61,689 bases of DNA, from positions 1-61,689 of the forward strand of contig QZKQ01000124.1 of assembly GCA_003599535.1 (NCBI GenBank), in the 5' to 3' direction. Below the pieces are notes generated by a model. That model was not told the DNA's origin. It ran no database searches and saw nothing but the letters and a program-made list of their open reading frames with translations. Shown piece after piece: positions 41,032 through 54,057 of this stretch. Every line of letters starts with the position of its first letter. The first letter of the stretch is position 1. A program made the position numbers and the translations under genes. Origin of the DNA: Candidatus Zixiibacteriota bacterium. GTDB taxonomy: Bacteria; Electryoneota; B3-LCP.

Positions 41032-43851
41032 CTATTTCACCAGCACCGCCTTCTGAGTCAGCGTCTTCCCGCCCGCCTCCAGCCGGTAAAGGTACAGCCC
41101 CGTAGCCAGACCGGAAGCGTCCCAGGTGACCCGGTGCCAACCGGCTTCGAAGCGGCCGTCGGCCAGCACGGCCACGGCCTGCCCCGCGGTGTTATAGACG
41201 GTCAGGCGCCCCCGGCCCGCTTCGGGCAGGGCGAAGTGGATTTCGGTCGAAGGATTGAACGGATTGGGGAAATTCTGCGACAGGAGGTATTCCTGCGGCA
41301 GCGACACGACGGGGCTCGTTCCTCCGACCTCTCCCGGGAAGGGTTCGCCGGTGCAGGCCCAGTCGTGCACCATCGCTTCCCCGTCGCCGGAGAGTTTGGT
41401 GTAGGTGAAATAACTGGAATCCCACTTCACCCCGGAAGCATACTGCCCGGTGTAGCCCACGTAGGTATACGTCCCCGCTGCGGCGGTGGACGGCACGTTC
41501 TGGAAACGGCTGCGGGTGACGTTGGCTCCCGCAGGCATGCCCACGGTCACCGGCCCCAGCATGGGCCCCTGCCAGGTACCGCCGGGAATCTGCTGCATGA
41601 TCCAGGCGTTGACCGTCTGGTACATCCCGGAGACGTTCGCGAGCTGGGCGTTGTAGGTGAACTGCCCGCCGCCGGGGGGGATCTGAATGGGGGCGCCCAC
41701 CGGCGTCAGAGTGATTTCCACCGGAGCGCCCGGCCCGCCGACGGGGGTCAGGCTGGCCGCGCTCAAGCGCACTTCGTCCAGGAAGCCGCCGTCGCGGGTG
41801 ACGCTGGCGTCGGTCCACAGGCGGTAGCGCAGGCGCAGGGCGGTGGCGGACCCGGCGTAGGCCGACAGGTCATGGCTTTCCAGTGACCATCCGTCCTGGC
41901 GGCTGTTGTGCGCCGCCACCGGGGTCCAGTTCGTGCCGTTGGTGGACACTTCGGCGAACAGGGTGTCGTAGTTGGTTTCGCAGTTGAAGCGGGTGCGATA
42001 GGACAGGGTGGCGAAATCGAAGTCCGCCAGGTTGACGGTATTGTTGTAGGTGCAGGAGATGTTCAGGCTGCTGCCGTAGCTGCCGCCGGGGCTGTCGGAC
42101 AGCGATTGGCTGCCGGAATAGGCATTGCCGGACAGCCCCCAGGTTCCCTGTGGCGTCCAGGCGCCCAGGCCGGTTTCGAAGCCGTCGTTGACCAGGGGCT
42201 GCGGGCCGTAGAGCACGAAGGGGGCCATGCCCGACGTCAGCACCACCGGAATATCCACCAGCGCCCCGGTCAGGAACGATCTGACCCGCAGGGTGTATTC
42301 GCCTTCGTACACGTTGGGGAAGGAGAAAATCCCCATGGCGTTGGTCACGGCGGTGTCGTAGGGGGTGTCCAACAGGATCAACTGGGCGCTCATGTATCCG
42401 CCCCCCACGTTGTGAATCGTGCCGTAGAAATTCATCAGGTCCGCCGGTTCCAGGGCCGCGTCCACCCGGGTGGGAGCCCCCTGGGCCACCGTCACGCCGG
42501 TCACGTGCTTGGGCCAGTAGCCCCAACTGGCGATATCCACATTGTAGGTCCCCGGCATCAGGGGATAATGCCAGTCGCCCACGTCGGGATCGGTGAAGAC
42601 GGCGTGGTCGTCGCGCCCCTGGATCATGACCGTGGCGTCCAGCGGCTGACCGGTCAGGGTATCGGTCACCAGCCCGCGCAGGCCCCGGTGCGCGAATTGC
42701 ATGTAGTTCAGCATGGACTGCCGGTTATCGTTCCAGAAGCCGGGCAGGGTGGTGGCGGAAGGCCATTTGATGGTGGAAATCTCCATGGTGATGTCCATGT
42801 CCCCCATCCAGTGGTAGCTCCAGTCCTGCAGGCCGCCGTTCAACTGGTACCAGTCCACCCCGTTGACCGTGCCGTGGAAGAACCCGCCGCTGTTGTTGTT
42901 CCACATGGGCAGGTTGGTGGCGGTATAGGTCAGGGCCGATTCCGAGATCCAGTCGTTGTTGTCAGTCAGGAACTTGTTGGCCTGGGGATCCCAGCAGGCA
43001 TCCCAGGGGTAATTGGCCACCAGGGCGCCGCCGTGGAAGTTGGCCGACATGACCGGGTAGTGGGCGAAGCCCCAGTTCATGACGTCTGCCGTCTCGATCT
43101 GTCGCCCGGCGGTGGTGTTGACGGGGTCGTCCACCCGGTCGGGGAAGTTGCGGTTCAGGTCCACTCCGTTGGCGTTGTAGCGGCTGCCGGCGGCGGTGCC
43201 GTCGGGGTTCATGGACGGCAGGATCCAGATCTCGGTGTCGTCCACCAACTGGGTAACCTGGGGGTCAACGCCGTAGTTGCTCACCAGGTGATTGATCAGG
43301 TACATGCACATTTCCTTGCCCACCACCTCGTCGCCGTGCATGGCCGCGACGTAGCGGAATTCCAGCTCGTCCTCTTCGGCCGCCACGTTATCGGAGATCT
43401 TCATGAACCACAGCGCCCGCCCCTGCACCGTGGGGCCGATGTTGTACAGTTGGCAGAGGCTGGGGTGGGCCGCGGCGAGGCCTTGCAGCTCGGCCACCAT
43501 GGTTTCGTAGGTGTGGTAGTCGTCGGTTTCGTCCAGCACGCCGGCGGCGCGTTCGGCCTGCCAGCGGAGGAAGCCTTCGTATCCTTCGTTGGGGATGGCC
43601 TCCAGCCGGTAGCCCAGCGAGCGCAGCAGGTTGACCTCATCGAGGTTCAGGTAGACCTCCACCGTGGGCCGGCCCTCGGCCACCGAAGCGCGGTCCACCT
43701 CCAGGTTCAGGGCGGCCAGTTCGCGCAGGGCGGCTTCATCGGGCAGATGGACCCGGTGCGGAGTGCGGTCGAAGAAGCGGGTATCGGCGGCCTGGGCAGC
43801 AAGGCTCAGCAGGCCGAGGGCGAGAAGAACGGTAAGAACAAGACGCGGCAT
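41032..43851 (-). CDS. Exported M14 zinc carboxypeptidase with T9SS sorting domain
   Basis: 939 residues, GGAGGAG ahead of ATG 43851; signal peptide ends near AAQA. The M14 domain (about 105-385) has zinc ligands His172 and Glu175 (AAMHGDEVVG), His273 (SANFHGG), the substrate-binding NGVDLNRNFPD, and the catalytic Glu357 in DITMEIST. A CarboxypepD_reg-like domain follows (about 390-480, GLRGLVTDTLTGQPL), then a second regulatory beta-sandwich, a carbohydrate-binding or MAM-like jelly roll (about 570-705, NDGFETGLGAW ... GGFLDEVRLSA), the shared module 711-841 described in the findings, and a sorting domain from 849 (NFPNPFNPSTEI to QKAVLVK). It should digest peptides outside the cell or at the surface. 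Confidence 0.92.
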   Translation of the reverse strand: MPRLVLTVLLALGLLSLAAQAADTRFFDRTPHRVHLPDEAALRELAALNLEVDRASVAEGRPTVEVYLNLDEVNLLRSLGYRLEAIPNEGYEGFLRWQAERAAGVLDETDDYHTYETMVAELQGLAAAHPSLCQLYNIGPTVQGRALWFMKISDNVAAEEDELEFRYVAAMHGDEVVGKEMCMYLINHLVSNYGVDPQVTQLVDDTEIWILPSMNPDGTAAGSRYNANGVDLNRNFPDRVDDPVNTTAGRQIETADVMNWGFAHYPVMSANFHGGALVANYPWDACWDPQANKFLTDNNDWISESALTYTATNLPMWNNNSGGFFHGTVNGVDWYQLNGGLQDWSYHWMGDMDITMEISTIKWPSATTLPGFWNDNRQSMLNYMQFAHRGLRGLVTDTLTGQPLDATVMIQGRDDHAVFTDPDVGDWHYPLMPGTYNVDIASWGYWPKHVTGVTVAQGAPTRVDAALEPADLMNFYGTIHNVGGGYMSAQLILLDTPYDTAVTNAMGIFSFPNVYEGEYTLRVRSFLTGALVDIPVVLTSGMAPFVLYGPQPLVNDGFETGLGAWTPQGTWGLSGNAYSGSQSLSDSPGGSYGSSLNISCTYNNTVNLADFDFATLSYRTRFNCETNYDTLFAEVSTNGTNWTPVAAHNSRQDGWSLESHDLSAYAGSATALRLRYRLWTDASVTRDGGFLDEVRLSAASLTPVGGPGAPVEITLTPVGAPIQIPPGGGQFTYNAQLANVSGMYQTVNAWIMQQIPGGTWQGPMLGPVTVGMPAGANVTRSRFQNVPSTAAAGTYTYVGYTGQYASGVKWDSSYFTYTKLSGDGEAMVHDWACTGEPFPGEVGGTSPVVSLPQEYLLSQNFPNPFNPSTEIHFALPEAGRGRLTVYNTAGQAVAVLADGRFEAGWHRVTWDASGLATGLYLYRLEAGGKTLTQKAVLVK

Positions 43852-48503: not shown

Positions 48504-50153
48504 ATGAGAGTTTGGCATTCCTGTATCATCTTCGGCCTGGCGGCGCTGCTGCTGGGTCTCTCCCCACAGGCATCCGCCCAGATTGTCCAGAGCGGCAACT
48601 TCATCCTGGACCTGGCGCAGGCCCAGGGCCAGAATCCCCAGGGCGTCATCCTGGAAACCGACGTCGAGCTGCTGTCCAACACCGGCTTCGAGACCGGCTC
48701 ATTCCCACCCTGGACCCACGACGGCGCCTGGACCATCTCCACCACCACTCCCCACACCGGCACCTACTGCGCTTACGACGTCGGCAACCACTGGGTGCGC
48801 CAGGAAATCACCCCCACGCCGGCGGACCAGATCGTCTCCGCCACCCTGTGGATGCGGCAGCCGGAAGACCAGATTTCGGCCATTGATTTCTTCTACAGCA
48901 ACGGCACCTATTCCGAGGACTTGATCTGGCCGACGCCCAACTGGACGCAGTTCAACGTGACCAGCTTCATTGATCCCGGCACGGTGGTTACCGCCATCCG
49001 CATCTGGGGGTACTCGGGCGGCGGCGGCCTCCCGGATGAAACCTTCATTGATGACGTCTCCATCCAGACCGCGGGCGGCATCCCCAATGTCCAGGTGACG
49101 CTGACACCCGTCAACCCGCCCATTCAGATCCCGGCGGGGGGCGGCACCTTCACCTTCTCGGCGCAGCTTCAGAATCTATCCGGCGCATTCCAGTCGGTGA
49201 ACGCCTGGATCATGCAGCAGACTCCCTCGGGCGTGTGGCAGGGGCCGCTGCTGGGACCGCTGGTGATTGACATGCCGGCGGGCGCCAATGTAACCCGGGA
49301 ACGCTTCCAGAATGTCCCTTCCACTGCCGCCCCGGGAACCTACACCTACTGCGGATTCGTGGGCACCTACAACCCGACGGTGGTGTACGACAGCAGCTAC
49401 TTCACTTACGTCAAGCTCTCCGGCGACGGGGAGACCCTGGTGGGCGACTGGAATTGCGCCGGGCAGGCTTTCCCGGGCGAAACCATCGCCGGGATCACGG
49501 AAGGCGCGGTGGCCGTTCCCGATGACGATCCCTTCGACGTGATTGACACGCTGTGGTGGACGGGCCCCATTGACCAGCATATCTTCAGCGGACAGACCCT
49601 GAGCTGGACTACGGACCTGTCCCAGATCGCCGCGGCCCGGCTGCAGATCAAGTACGGCCTGTGGAACAGCCCGGACCTGGCCATGGACGTCTATGTCAAC
49701 AATAACTACGTCGGCACGGTGATCGCGGACCAGGGCTACATCTCCCCCGGCCCGGAATATGCCCTCTGGGGCATCGGCAACTATATCGTGGCAGGACCGG
49801 ACGTCATCGAGGTGCGCGCCCAGACCGGCGGCGAGGCGGTCGTCGGCCACGTGGGAGTCGGGTACAAACCGTCCCTGGGTGAGGCGGTCGAGGCGCCCGC
49901 CCGCCTGAGCTTGACGCCCAACCCCTTCAATCCCACCACCACGCTACGCTTCGAGGTGCCGCAGGCCGAACGGGTCACACTGAGCATCTTCGATATCGCC
50001 GGCCGGGAGGTGGCGACGCTGGTGGACGGCATGCAGCAGCCGGGAAGCCACACGGTGACTTTCGACGCCAATGGATTGCCCTCTGGGGTCTACCTCTGCC
50101 GCCTGCAGGTCGGAGCGCAGACCACCACCGGAAAAATGGTGTTGATGAAGTAA
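48504..50153 (+). CDS. Exported T9SS protein with CBM-like domain and shared module
   Basis: 549 residues, GAGGAGGTAG upstream of ATG 48504; signal peptide ends near ASA. Residues about 55-190 look like a carbohydrate-binding jelly roll (LLSNTGFETGSFPPW ... FIDDVSIQTAG). Residues 196-326 are the shared module (VQVTLTPVNPPIQIP ... SSYFTYVKL ... GQAFPGE). Residues about 340-460 form a further beta-sandwich (VIDTLWWTGPIDQHIFSG ... NNYVGTVIADQGY). From about 467 a sorting domain (LTPNPFNPTTTLRFEV ... SGVYLCRL ... GKMVLMK). It carries no visible catalytic residues. Strong promoter and terminator; the next gene shares the same module and promoter type. Confidence 0.88.
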   Translation: MRVWHSCIIFGLAALLLGLSPQASAQIVQSGNFILDLAQAQGQNPQGVILETDVELLSNTGFETGSFPPWTHDGAWTISTTTPHTGTYCAYDVGNHWVRQEITPTPADQIVSATLWMRQPEDQISAIDFFYSNGTYSEDLIWPTPNWTQFNVTSFIDPGTVVTAIRIWGYSGGGGLPDETFIDDVSIQTAGGIPNVQVTLTPVNPPIQIPAGGGTFTFSAQLQNLSGAFQSVNAWIMQQTPSGVWQGPLLGPLVIDMPAGANVTRERFQNVPSTAAPGTYTYCGFVGTYNPTVVYDSSYFTYVKLSGDGETLVGDWNCAGQAFPGETIAGITEGAVAVPDDDPFDVIDTLWWTGPIDQHIFSGQTLSWTTDLSQIAAARLQIKYGLWNSPDLAMDVYVNNNYVGTVIADQGYISPGPEYALWGIGNYIVAGPDVIEVRAQTGGEAVVGHVGVGYKPSLGEAVEAPARLSLTPNPFNPTTTLRFEVPQAERVTLSIFDIAGREVATLVDGMQQPGSHTVTFDANGLPSGVYLCRLQVGAQTTTGKMVLMK

Positions 50154-50257: not shown

Positions 50258-50286
50258 TTGACTTGGCGAAAAATTTGTGATATATT
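50258..50286 (+). promoter_or_regulatory. Promoter of the candidate selenoprotein gene
   Basis: TTGACT (50258-50263), 17-nt spacer, TATATT (50281-50286), the same boxes and spacing as the gene upstream. Leader of about 74 nt with GGAGGA before ATG 50367. Confidence 0.9.
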
Positions 50287-50366
50287 ATCCTATCTTGCCG
50301 GATTACTCCATCACTGCGCGATCTGTACCGAGCCATAACCGCCACTCTCAACGCACCGGAGGAGAC

Positions 50367-52793
50367 ATGCGCAAAATCTTGAGCATTCTGGGCACTACCG
50401 CCTTCCTGCTGGCGCTCCTGGCCAACCTGGCCCTGGGGTACCCGCGGACCGTGATGGTGGAAGACTTCACCAATTGGGGCTGACCGGGGTGCGCGACGAC
50501 CGATCCCGGTCTTCACGCTGCCCTGCTGAATGTAGGGTATACCAATAACGCGTTCGACATCTCCTATCACATGAGTTGGCCGGCCTCCAACGATCCTTTC
50601 TACCTGGCCAACACGACGGAGAATACCGCCCGGCGGACCTATTACGGGGTCAACTCCGTACCGCACATGAAGTGCGACGGGGCCACGCTGTCATATTCCA
50701 CCCCGCAGCCCGGAATCCAGGCCCGGTTGGCGGTCCCTTCCCCACTGTGGATGGATCTCATCCCCCAGGTAAACGGCAGCACGCTGAACCTGACCGTCAA
50801 GGTGGTGTCCGAACAGAACATCACCAGCGGTCACGTGCTGCACATGGTATTGCTGGATCGCTACACCTACCTGCCGGCCTCGCCCAACGGTCAGCCGCAT
50901 CACTACCACGCCATGCTGAAGATGGCGCCGTCGTCCAGCGGTCAGAACTTCACCGCCACAGTGGGCGACACCATGGTCTACACCGGGAGCTTCGCTCTTA
51001 GCCCCTCGTGGCTGATCACCAACCTGGACGTGTCCGCCTTCGTGCAGAACAACAGTTCGCGCGACGTGCTGCAGGCGCGCTGCGAACAGCTTCCGGTGAA
51101 CATCCCCGGCCTGTATTACGCCAGCTACACCCTGCAGGACAACGGCAACAATGACGGCCGCGCCGAGCCGGGCGAGACGGCGTCCATGTTCATCACCCTG
51201 GGCAACCAGGAACCGTTCCAGACGGCCACCAACGTGGTGGGGACGCTGTCCACCACCGATCCCACTCTGACCATCACCACTCCCACGGTAAGCTTCCCCA
51301 ACATCCCCAACGGCGGCACCGGCGCCAACACCAGCCCGATGCAGTTCGTGGTCAGTTCCACGGCCGCGCCGCACCCCTCCACGCTGCACCTGCACGTGGT
51401 AGCCGACCCGGGAGCGACCCAGATGGATGTGGACATCCCCATCTATATCGGCTGGCCCGATGTCCTGCTGGTGGATGACGATAATGGCGGCATTTTCGAG
51501 CAGTACTACGAGCCGGTCGTCGCCGCCTTGGGCGCCTCCTACGAGTTGTGGAATACCAGCACCCAGGGAACCCCGCTGCCCGCCAACGTCACCGGCTACG
51601 GTGCCATGATCTGGTGGACCGGATTCGTGCAGGATACCTGCATTTCGGTCAACGAGCAGAACCTGATCAATGCCTATCTGAACGGCGGCGGCAAGCTGTT
51701 TATCAGCGGGCAGAACCTGGCCGCGGGCCTGAACGTGTCCGCCCCGACCTTCCTGCAGAACACCCTGCACGCCACCTACAATGTGAACAACACCATGGTG
51801 AAGATCCTGAACGGCGTTGCGGGCAATCCGGTGGGCGACGGGCTGATCCTGAACTGCAATCCGGGCGGCACCGGATCGGGATCCTGCACCTCCCCGGACG
51901 GCATCAGCGTGCTGGCTCCGGCCAGTTCCGCCTTCACCTATCAGGGCCTGACCCATAGCGGCGGATTGACCTACTCGGGCACCAACAATTCCAAGCTGGT
52001 GCTGCTGTCCGTGCCCTTCGAAGCGATCAGCGGGCAGAGTGGATCGGCCACCCGCCAGCAGGTCCTGGAAACTATCTTTGACTTCTTCGGCTTCAGCGGA
52101 CCGACGTACCCCAACGTGCAGGTGACCCTGACTCCGGTCAATCCGCCCATCATTATCCCGGCGGCCGGCGGGCAGTTCACCTACAACGCCCAGTTGCAGA
52201 ACCTGTCGGGGGCGACCCAGACGGTCAATGCCTGGATCATGCAGCGCCTGCCCAACGGCACCTGGCAGGGACCCCTGCTGGGCCCGGTGAGCCTGGTCAT
52301 GCCCAACGGCGCCAACGTCACCCGCAGCCGCTTCCAGAACGTGCCCGGCACGGCTGCGTCCGGCGTTTACCTGTACTGCGGTTACGTGGGGACCTACAGC
52401 CCCATGGCCAAGTGGGACTCCAGCTACTTCAACTACACCAAGACCGCCACCGACGGGGCGGAAATTCTGGTGCATGACTGGGCCAACTGGGGCGAGTCCT
52501 TTGAGGACCTGAACCTGGTGGAGACCCCGGCGGATTACGCCCTGCTGGGCGCCTTCCCCAACCCGTTCAACCCCAGCACCACCATCCGCTTCGATCTGCC
52601 GGAAGCCTCCGACGTGACCCTGACGGTCTTCGACCTGACCGGGCGCGCCGTGGCCAACCTGGTCAGCGGTCACCGCGAAGCCGGTACGCACACCGCGACC
52701 TTCGACGCCGCCCACCTGGCTTCGGGGATGTACGTGTACTGCCTGCAGGCGGGCGACTTCACCGCCACCGGCAAGATGATGCTGCTGAAGTGA
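50367..52793 (+). CDS. Candidate exported selenoprotein: thioredoxin-like (UPGC) T9SS protein with in-frame TGA
   Basis: 808 residues if the TGA at 50481-50483 is read as selenocysteine (Sec39). The signal peptide ends near LALG, then RTVMVEDFTNWG-U-PGC: Sec39 occupies the first position and Cys42 the second of a CxxC motif in the EDFTNxxCxxC setting of exported thioredoxin-like (Omp28-type) proteins. The frame runs on without another stop through FDISYHMSWPASNDPFY and RRTYYGVNSVPHMKCDG, the body of that fold. Later come a CARDB-like sandwich (about 275-370), a DVLLVDDDNGG Rossmann-like domain (about 375-580), the shared module 584-714, and a sorting domain (FPNPFNPSTTIRFDL to GKMMLLK). The terminal stop is also TGA, and TGA ends many neighbours, so the code is standard. 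Alternatives: a nonsense mutation or base-call error. Confidence 0.85.
50481..50518 (+). promoter_or_regulatory. Candidate bacterial SECIS element after the internal TGA
   Basis: A hairpin GCGcGAcGACCG / CGGTCtTCaCGC (50491-50502 with 50507-50518; lower case unpaired) closes an ATCC loop that begins 19 nt after the TGA, inside the spacing known for bacterial SECIS hairpins. The apical loop lacks the usual leading G unless the top G-C pair opens. A competing stem ACCGGG / CCCGGT (50483-50488 with 50505-50510) includes the A of the TGA. Confidence 0.5.
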
Positions 52794-52847: not shown

Positions 52848-52880
52848 ACGGGGCGCGAGAAATCGCGCCCCGTTTTATTT
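52848..52880 (+). terminator. Terminator of the candidate selenoprotein gene
   Basis: Perfect 11-bp stem ACGGGGCGCGA / TCGCGCCCCGT with a GAAA tetraloop, followed by TTTATTTG. Confidence 0.93.
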
Positions 52881-52929: not shown

Positions 52930-54057
52930 TCAGCGGCGCAGGAGGAGTTGCTCCAGGAAGGCGTGCACGCGGGTGCGCATCTGCCCCGCGGCGTTGTTGG
53001 ACAGGTCGTGGTCCAGGTGGAGGAAGGGAAGTCCCAGGGCTTCCTTGAAGCGCACCGCTTCGAAGCCCCAGGGATGGCAGAATTTCAGGGTTTTGAAGAT
53101 GACCCCCTGAACGCCGCGGCGCTGCAGGTCCCGGGCCACGGTCTCCAGCAGCCGGTCGTTGGGGCGGCGGTGGGGGCAGAGGATTTCATCGTGGCGCACG
53201 GTCAGCAGGGCTTCGAAGGAGTCGTCCGGCAGCGGTCCCGCATCCCCCAGCGCCCGGCGGCCGGTGCACAGGGCGTCGTACACTATGGCGGCGCGGCCGT
53301 TCTCTTCCGCCAGGTCCACGATCTGGCCGTCCCCGTCGCCCAGACAGCTGCCCAGCAGCGCCAGGCGCAGCGGCGGGCGGCGGTAGGGCGAGCCGCGGTC
53401 TTGAACCCAGGCTTCGATTTCCGGCAGGCAGGAGGCGAAGTAATCCGCCGGCGTTGTCAGAAACAGGCGCGCCAGGGCCAGGAATTCCCCCCCGGATAGC
53501 GCCGGGCGCCCCTCGATCTCCCGGTCCGCCAGATCGCGCATCCGGCGCTGAATTTCGCGCCGCCGGAGGAGCGCTTCGCGTAACCTCGCGGCGTCGAAAG
53601 GCACGCCGGACCAGGCGGCCAGCTTGGCAGCCAGACGGCGCAGCTCTTCCCGGGCGAAATCGCGGGCCAGGGGGTTTTCCATGGTGCGGGGGGCGTTGAA
53701 GGTGAAGACGGGCCGGCCCAGGTCCCGGGCGACGATTTCCAGGCTGCGGCGCATCTGGTCGCAGGTGGTGGCGCCCAGGACGGCATCGGGTGGATCGGCG
53801 GTCCGGTGCAGGCCGCCCAGCAGGGATTTGCAGAAGGAGCAGGTATCGGAAGCCAGGAAGCGGCCGCCGCGCAGCTCGTCCTCGAGCCCGGCGGACAGCA
53901 GGCGCACCGGGACGGCGCCCACTGCCTCGGCCAGCTCCACCGGGGCGCCCAGGCAGATGGTCCCCACGACGGGGCGACTCCTGGGCAGCTCGCGGTACTC
54001 CCGCGCCAGGCGGTCAAGAATAGTGAGAAGTTCTATGCGGGGGGGCAATACTTCCAT
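52930..54057 (-). CDS. 2-hydroxyacyl-CoA dehydratase (HgdB/HgdC-D type)-like protein
   Basis: 375 residues. Family features are VGTICLGAPVELAEAVGAVPVRL near the N-terminus, ASDTCSFCKSLLGG, GATTCDQMRRSLEI, FTFNAPRT, and the C-terminal LGSCLGDGDGQIVDLAE and IFKTLKFCHPWGFEAVRFKEAL, whose cysteines would ligate an iron-sulfur cluster. Such proteins form dehydratases or reductases of 2-hydroxyacyl- or aryl-CoA substrates, usually as two similar subunits plus an ATP-driven activator. Here only one subunit and no activator is present, so it may be a single-subunit relative of unknown substrate. It follows engB by 24 nt, so the two are probably cotranscribed. Confidence 0.82.
   Translation of the reverse strand: MEVLPPRIELLTILDRLAREYRELPRSRPVVGTICLGAPVELAEAVGAVPVRLLSAGLEDELRGGRFLASDTCSFCKSLLGGLHRTADPPDAVLGATTCDQMRRSLEIVARDLGRPVFTFNAPRTMENPLARDFAREELRRLAAKLAAWSGVPFDAARLREALLRRREIQRRMRDLADREIEGRPALSGGEFLALARLFLTTPADYFASCLPEIEAWVQDRGSPYRRPPLRLALLGSCLGDGDGQIVDLAEENGRAAIVYDALCTGRRALGDAGPLPDDSFEALLTVRHDEILCPHRRPNDRLLETVARDLQRRGVQGVIFKTLKFCHPWGFEAVRFKEALGLPFLHLDHDLSNNAAGQMRTRVHAFLEQLLLRR

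Follow-up and report, generated by a model that had tools for sequence, protein, structure and literature searches.

The window, that is the whole stretch of 61,689 nucleotides of contig QZKQ01000124.1 analysed here, contains a reading frame that extends from an ATG at position 50367 to a TGA at positions 52791-52793 and comprises 809 codons including the stop (Table 1). Re-reading of this frame confirmed one internal stop only, a TGA at codon 39 in the context FTNWG-U-PGC, which is followed by 769 open codons. The GC contents of the three codon positions are the same before (0.55/0.42/0.87) and after (0.56/0.47/0.88) this TGA, and the upstream promoter and ribosome-binding site that the original prediction had described were found as well. 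A search of the window at the Rfam gathering thresholds returned tRNA only. Two neighbouring genes, at 48504-50153 (encoding a 549-residue protein) and at 41032-43851 (encoding an M14 zinc carboxypeptidase), also carry type IX sorting tails, and the frame is adjoined by a gene for a 2-hydroxyglutaryl-CoA dehydratase D-component family protein (52930-54057, minus strand). Among the neighbouring genes inspected, no redox partner gene adjoins the frame.

Table 1. Coordinates of the predicted selenoprotein gene, its parts and its flanking signals in the window.
Feature	Position	Strand	Basis
Putative sigma-70-like promoter, TTGACT-17-TATATT	50258..50286	+	consensus match 10/12, 17-nt spacer, 0.2 expected by chance
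Ribosome-binding site GGAGGAG, before ATG	50358..50364	+	sequence reading
Predicted selenoprotein gene, 808 residues, Sec at position 39	50367..52793	+	frame and homologs
Predicted signal peptide, residues 1-24 (MRKILSILGTTAFLLALLANLALG)	50367..50438	+	read off the translation
Predicted Sec codon TGA at the first position of UxxC (U-P-G-C)	50481..50483	+	conserved Sec/Cys column
SECIS-like hairpin immediately 3' of TGA	50485..50525	+	folding energy; covariation in relatives
Omp28-related, thioredoxin-like domain, residues 27-240	50445..51086	+	NF045500, Omp28 and structure-profile matches
Por_Secre_tail, type IX secretion sorting domain, residues 730-805	52554..52781	+	TIGR04183 match
Probable terminator, hairpin GGGGCGCGA-GAAA-TCGCGCCCC followed by T-rich stretch	52850..52872	+	sequence reading

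The original prediction had considered it unlikely that a chance nonsense mutation would produce such a frame. A loose rule of one TGA in a long frame is, however, satisfied by 12 frames of the GC-rich window, so that the bare pattern is not rare and proves little. The weight instead rests on the relatives: what raises the TGA at codon 39 above chance is its position, which recurs in paralogs, at the TGA sites of the phylum and in homologs outside it.

Two paralogs in the same genome, on contigs C131 (62% identical) and C7 (52% identical), both carry TGA at the same codon, with the paralog motifs reading FTNWG-U-PGC and FTNWG-U-VDC. A scan of genome contigs with the protein as query yielded only two distant loci, which match the middle region. 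Within the phylum, homologs were found in 38 of 39 genomes, and TGA occurs at 25 homologous sites in 13 genomes, two of these sites being fragments cut by contig ends, both in G011. All 25 correspond to the first Cys of a CxxC motif. About 50 homologs of the phylum have Cys at that column, and a few (e.g., L074 and L085) have neither Sec nor Cys. These observations bear out the original proposal that the TGA stands at the redox-active first Cys and that homologs should carry Cys or TGA at position 39, as both forms occur at exactly that column. On a tree of 74 domains, calculated with Sec masked, at least eight switches between Sec and Cys are required. In G011, the contigs are interrupted some 45 bases past the TGA or shortly downstream (C22 end 17017, C46 end 12253, C23 start, C20 end 38122), as if two paralogs shared near-identical DNA around the Sec codon.

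A wider search covering 386 genomes detected TGA copies outside the phylum too, including three in one single-contig genome of 5.04 Mb. Of 19 TGA homologs examined in nine genomes outside the phylum, 18 carry U in place of that Cys. The exception, L186 (G172 C176:178755-179408), is an Omp28 homolog with the motif CGUAAC, in which the usual Cys is kept and U follows two residues later; its TGA is followed by a hairpin (z -2.25). That an ordinary Cys-type Omp28 gene has acquired its TGA through a nonsense mutation or a sequencing error could be argued on the grounds that the assembly is a draft of 140 contigs and that a single base separates TGA from the Cys codons TGC and TGT. However, TGA recurs at this codon in the two paralogs as well as in 12 further genomes within the phylum and nine beyond it, among them the single-contig one, and protein identity to the nearest relatives stays at 50-67% downstream of the TGA. 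A sequencing error is very unlikely because the copies stem from independent metagenome-assembled genomes and, threefold, from a single-contig genome. In practice, the repeated occurrence of TGA in precisely this column refutes a pseudogene or artefact, an explanation that we regard as extremely improbable.

The machinery for Sec insertion, for which the original prediction had called as a check, was found in the genome of the window (G000) with all four components, selA, selB, selC and selD. This genome contains two SelA (C12:21512-22879 and C2:74575-75933), two SelB (C31:14036-15889 and C79:2665-4557), two divergent tRNA-Sec with the anticodon UCA (C49:23177-23269 and C95:11612-11703) and one SelD (L103, C49:23609-24535). 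SelD has an in-frame TGA of its own (VACAG-U-ASK) and is itself a selenoprotein, encoded about 340 bases from one of the tRNA-Sec genes. All 13 TGA-bearing genomes of the phylum contain SelA and SelB, and tRNA-Sec was found in 12 of them; it was not found in G023 though TGA copies are present there, perhaps due to an assembly gap. The four genomes without SelA (G002, G009, G021, and G036) are also without tRNA-Sec and have Cys copies only.

Duplication of this machinery characterizes the family of the window (f1), in which SelA and tRNA-Sec each occur twice in all six genomes and full-length SelB twice in five, the SelB of the sixth (G012) consisting of one full copy plus fragments. In a SelB tree, the two f1 copies fall into two well-separated groups. 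In both f7 and f8, SelA as well as SelB is present in two copies, whereas the search detected one tRNA-Sec for each of them. No more than one Sec set occurs in families f2 to f6, with the exceptions of G020 (SelA split over contigs) and G024 (a second, weaker tRNA-Sec match). A single bacterium with two complete Sec operons has been reported, Photobacterium profundum 3TCK (PMC5330540); a family-wide duplication of the Sec machinery may be new.

In bacterial selenoproteins, the Sec codon is expected to be followed by a SECIS hairpin, and the 41 bases after the TGA fold into a long hairpin of -24.1 kcal/mol (z -3.99), with none of 200 shuffles being as stable. Across the family, downstream 42-mers fold better in TGA than in Cys homologs (mean z -1.65 vs. 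-0.18, p = 2e-5, the related sequences not being fully independent), and upstream 42-mers show no folding difference between the two forms. For family f3, a stem of eight pairs was found that is capped by a 3-base loop whose first base is G, with compensatory changes in all eight pairs and none of 500 shuffles as good. In f1, 79% of cells pair compared to 27-49% when slid, which is weaker support than the covariation in f3. Support for the SECIS element is uneven across the Sec homologs, the hairpin being strong in f1 and f3 and weak in several members (e.g., L062, L069, and L038).

These data also bear on the possibility that UGA specifies another amino acid, either Cys via a tRNA-Cys(UCA) or Trp via code reassignment. 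The location of the codon in a Cys column would be compatible with such a reading, but the full Sec machinery and the covarying hairpins speak against it, as do the homologs, in which each matched domain contains at most one TGA, always at the redox motif. Furthermore, the genes for SelA, SelB, and SprA are devoid of in-frame TGA. We therefore give this alternative hardly any credence. Decoding of the UGA at codon 39 as selenocysteine is, by comparison, very probable, and it is indicated as firmly as sequence can indicate it. SelB and tRNA-Sec(UCA) would carry out this decoding, guided by the hairpin just 3' of the codon.

Regarding the nature of the product, residues 27-240 match the NCBIfam family NF045500 ('Omp28-related selenoprotein'; E 3e-11, 43.2 bits, curated cut-off 200), and residues 91-238 pass the gathering score of Pfam PF11551 (Omp28; 36.2 vs. 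34.9 bits), with the latter match starting downstream of UxxC. Residues 730-805 were identified as a type IX type A sorting tail (TIGR04183, 39.3 bits, cut-off 23; Por_Secre_tail, 37 bits, cut-off 27), and 19 of 20 Sec homologs have a type IX tail. The presence of type IX machinery in the genome was judged by SprA, the type IX translocon, which was found as one frame of 2189 residues (E 4e-160). The predicted export and type IX sorting are thus supported by the domain matches and by SprA, and it is likely that the product is exported. The signal peptide would take it across the inner membrane, and the C-terminal tail would direct it to the type IX secretion system for passage across the outer membrane.

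A profile of the family matches HBP35 (5y1a, E 9e-7) and thioredoxins (1fo5, E 1e-5) with CxxC in register; a phmmer search of the PDB with the domain alone gave nothing useful, and a solved Omp28 structure (2r2c) matches the second half of the family profile only, not significantly. A single-sequence AlphaFold model of residues 24-243 was set aside (pLDDT 38.5). The Omp28-type domain is therefore expected from the profile matches to fold in a thioredoxin-like manner, with UxxC as its active site. HBP35 of Porphyromonas gingivalis, described as a secreted type IX cargo with reported thioredoxin activity and heme binding (PMC2907840; PMC10202324), is the closest functional analogue. Its N-terminal thioredoxin motif FTAEWCGYC aligns with FTNWG-U-PGC and the similarity extends over the following region, but it has Cys instead of Sec and comprises 344 residues. 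Going by these descriptions, HBP35 implies that such type IX-secreted proteins of the thioredoxin type exist with Cys.

By analogy with the thioredoxin domain of HBP35, the product is probably a cell-surface oxidoreductase of the thiol/disulfide or peroxide-reducing type, in which Sec would be the attacking nucleophile, although we hold this role with less assurance than the export. It is also conceivable, if rather unlikely, that the Sec protein is made but has no oxidoreductase role at the surface, being anchored by its type IX tail and using Sec to bind heme or a metal, or that the UGA is mainly a selenium-status switch truncating the protein under selenium scarcity. HBP35, the nearest relative for which a structure has been solved, is described as a heme-binding type IX cargo (PMC10202324; PMC2907840), which would fit binding. 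However, thioredoxin activity is reported for HBP35 itself (PMC2907840), and thiol redox chemistry is suggested by the retention of UxxC, by the second Cys, which is nearly invariant among the homologs, and by an invariant Pro in the cis-Pro-like region, where Asp-Gly is likewise invariant or nearly so.

The original prediction had put the protein forward as a candidate new selenoprotein, exported and type IX-sorted; the word 'new' goes too far, since a related UxxC selenoprotein has been described before. This protein, GOS_C, was recognized in ocean metagenomes by Zhang and Gladyshev in 2008 as a UxxC selenoprotein of the thioredoxin fold, represented by 74 Sec sequences (PMC2398784), and a 2026 review assigns it to NF045500 (PMC13188914). 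As far as these accounts describe it, the present protein shares with GOS_C/NF045500 the Omp28-related domain, the thioredoxin-like fold, UxxC with Sec in first position, the SECIS-like hairpin and the coexistence of Sec with Cys forms. In the present protein, an extended stretch and then a type IX tail come after the domain, whereas the passages on GOS_C compared here mention no tail. With 43.2 bits the protein scores far under the cut-off of NF045500, which was reached in none of the 39 genomes of the phylum and by none of ten tested TGA homologs outside it. As GOS_C/NF045500 has been described, yet neither the phylum members nor these ten homologs pass the cut-off, the protein is best regarded as a divergent, type IX-tailed variant of the Omp28-related UxxC selenoproteins. 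In a literature search, no paper was found that joins 'Omp28' with 'selenoprotein', and 'selenoprotein' and 'type IX secretion' were joined only in an unrelated rabbit feeding study.

The bacterial selenoproteins known so far have mostly been regarded as intracellular or periplasmic redox enzymes. The gene described here belongs to a large and mostly overlooked group that is related to one named selenoprotein family. A much broader reading, which we consider improbable as a whole, is that an entire class of type IX-exported surface selenoproteins, extending well beyond one phylum, has been missed because standard gene prediction begins such genes downstream of the UGA or ends them there, and that in the family of the window this class is decoded by two coexisting Sec systems (two SelA, two SelB, and two tRNA-Sec), each perhaps serving different SECIS hairpins. 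On the main reading, selenoproteins directed to the surface by type IX secretion and present in multiple copies would mean that bacteria spend selenium beyond the outer membrane. For many of the relatives with TGA, gene models would have to be corrected, as annotation with the standard code leaves the proteins without signal peptide and active site. The GOS_C kind would be widened well past its named family, and the group would supply many natural Sec/Cys pairs for asking why Sec stays or goes.
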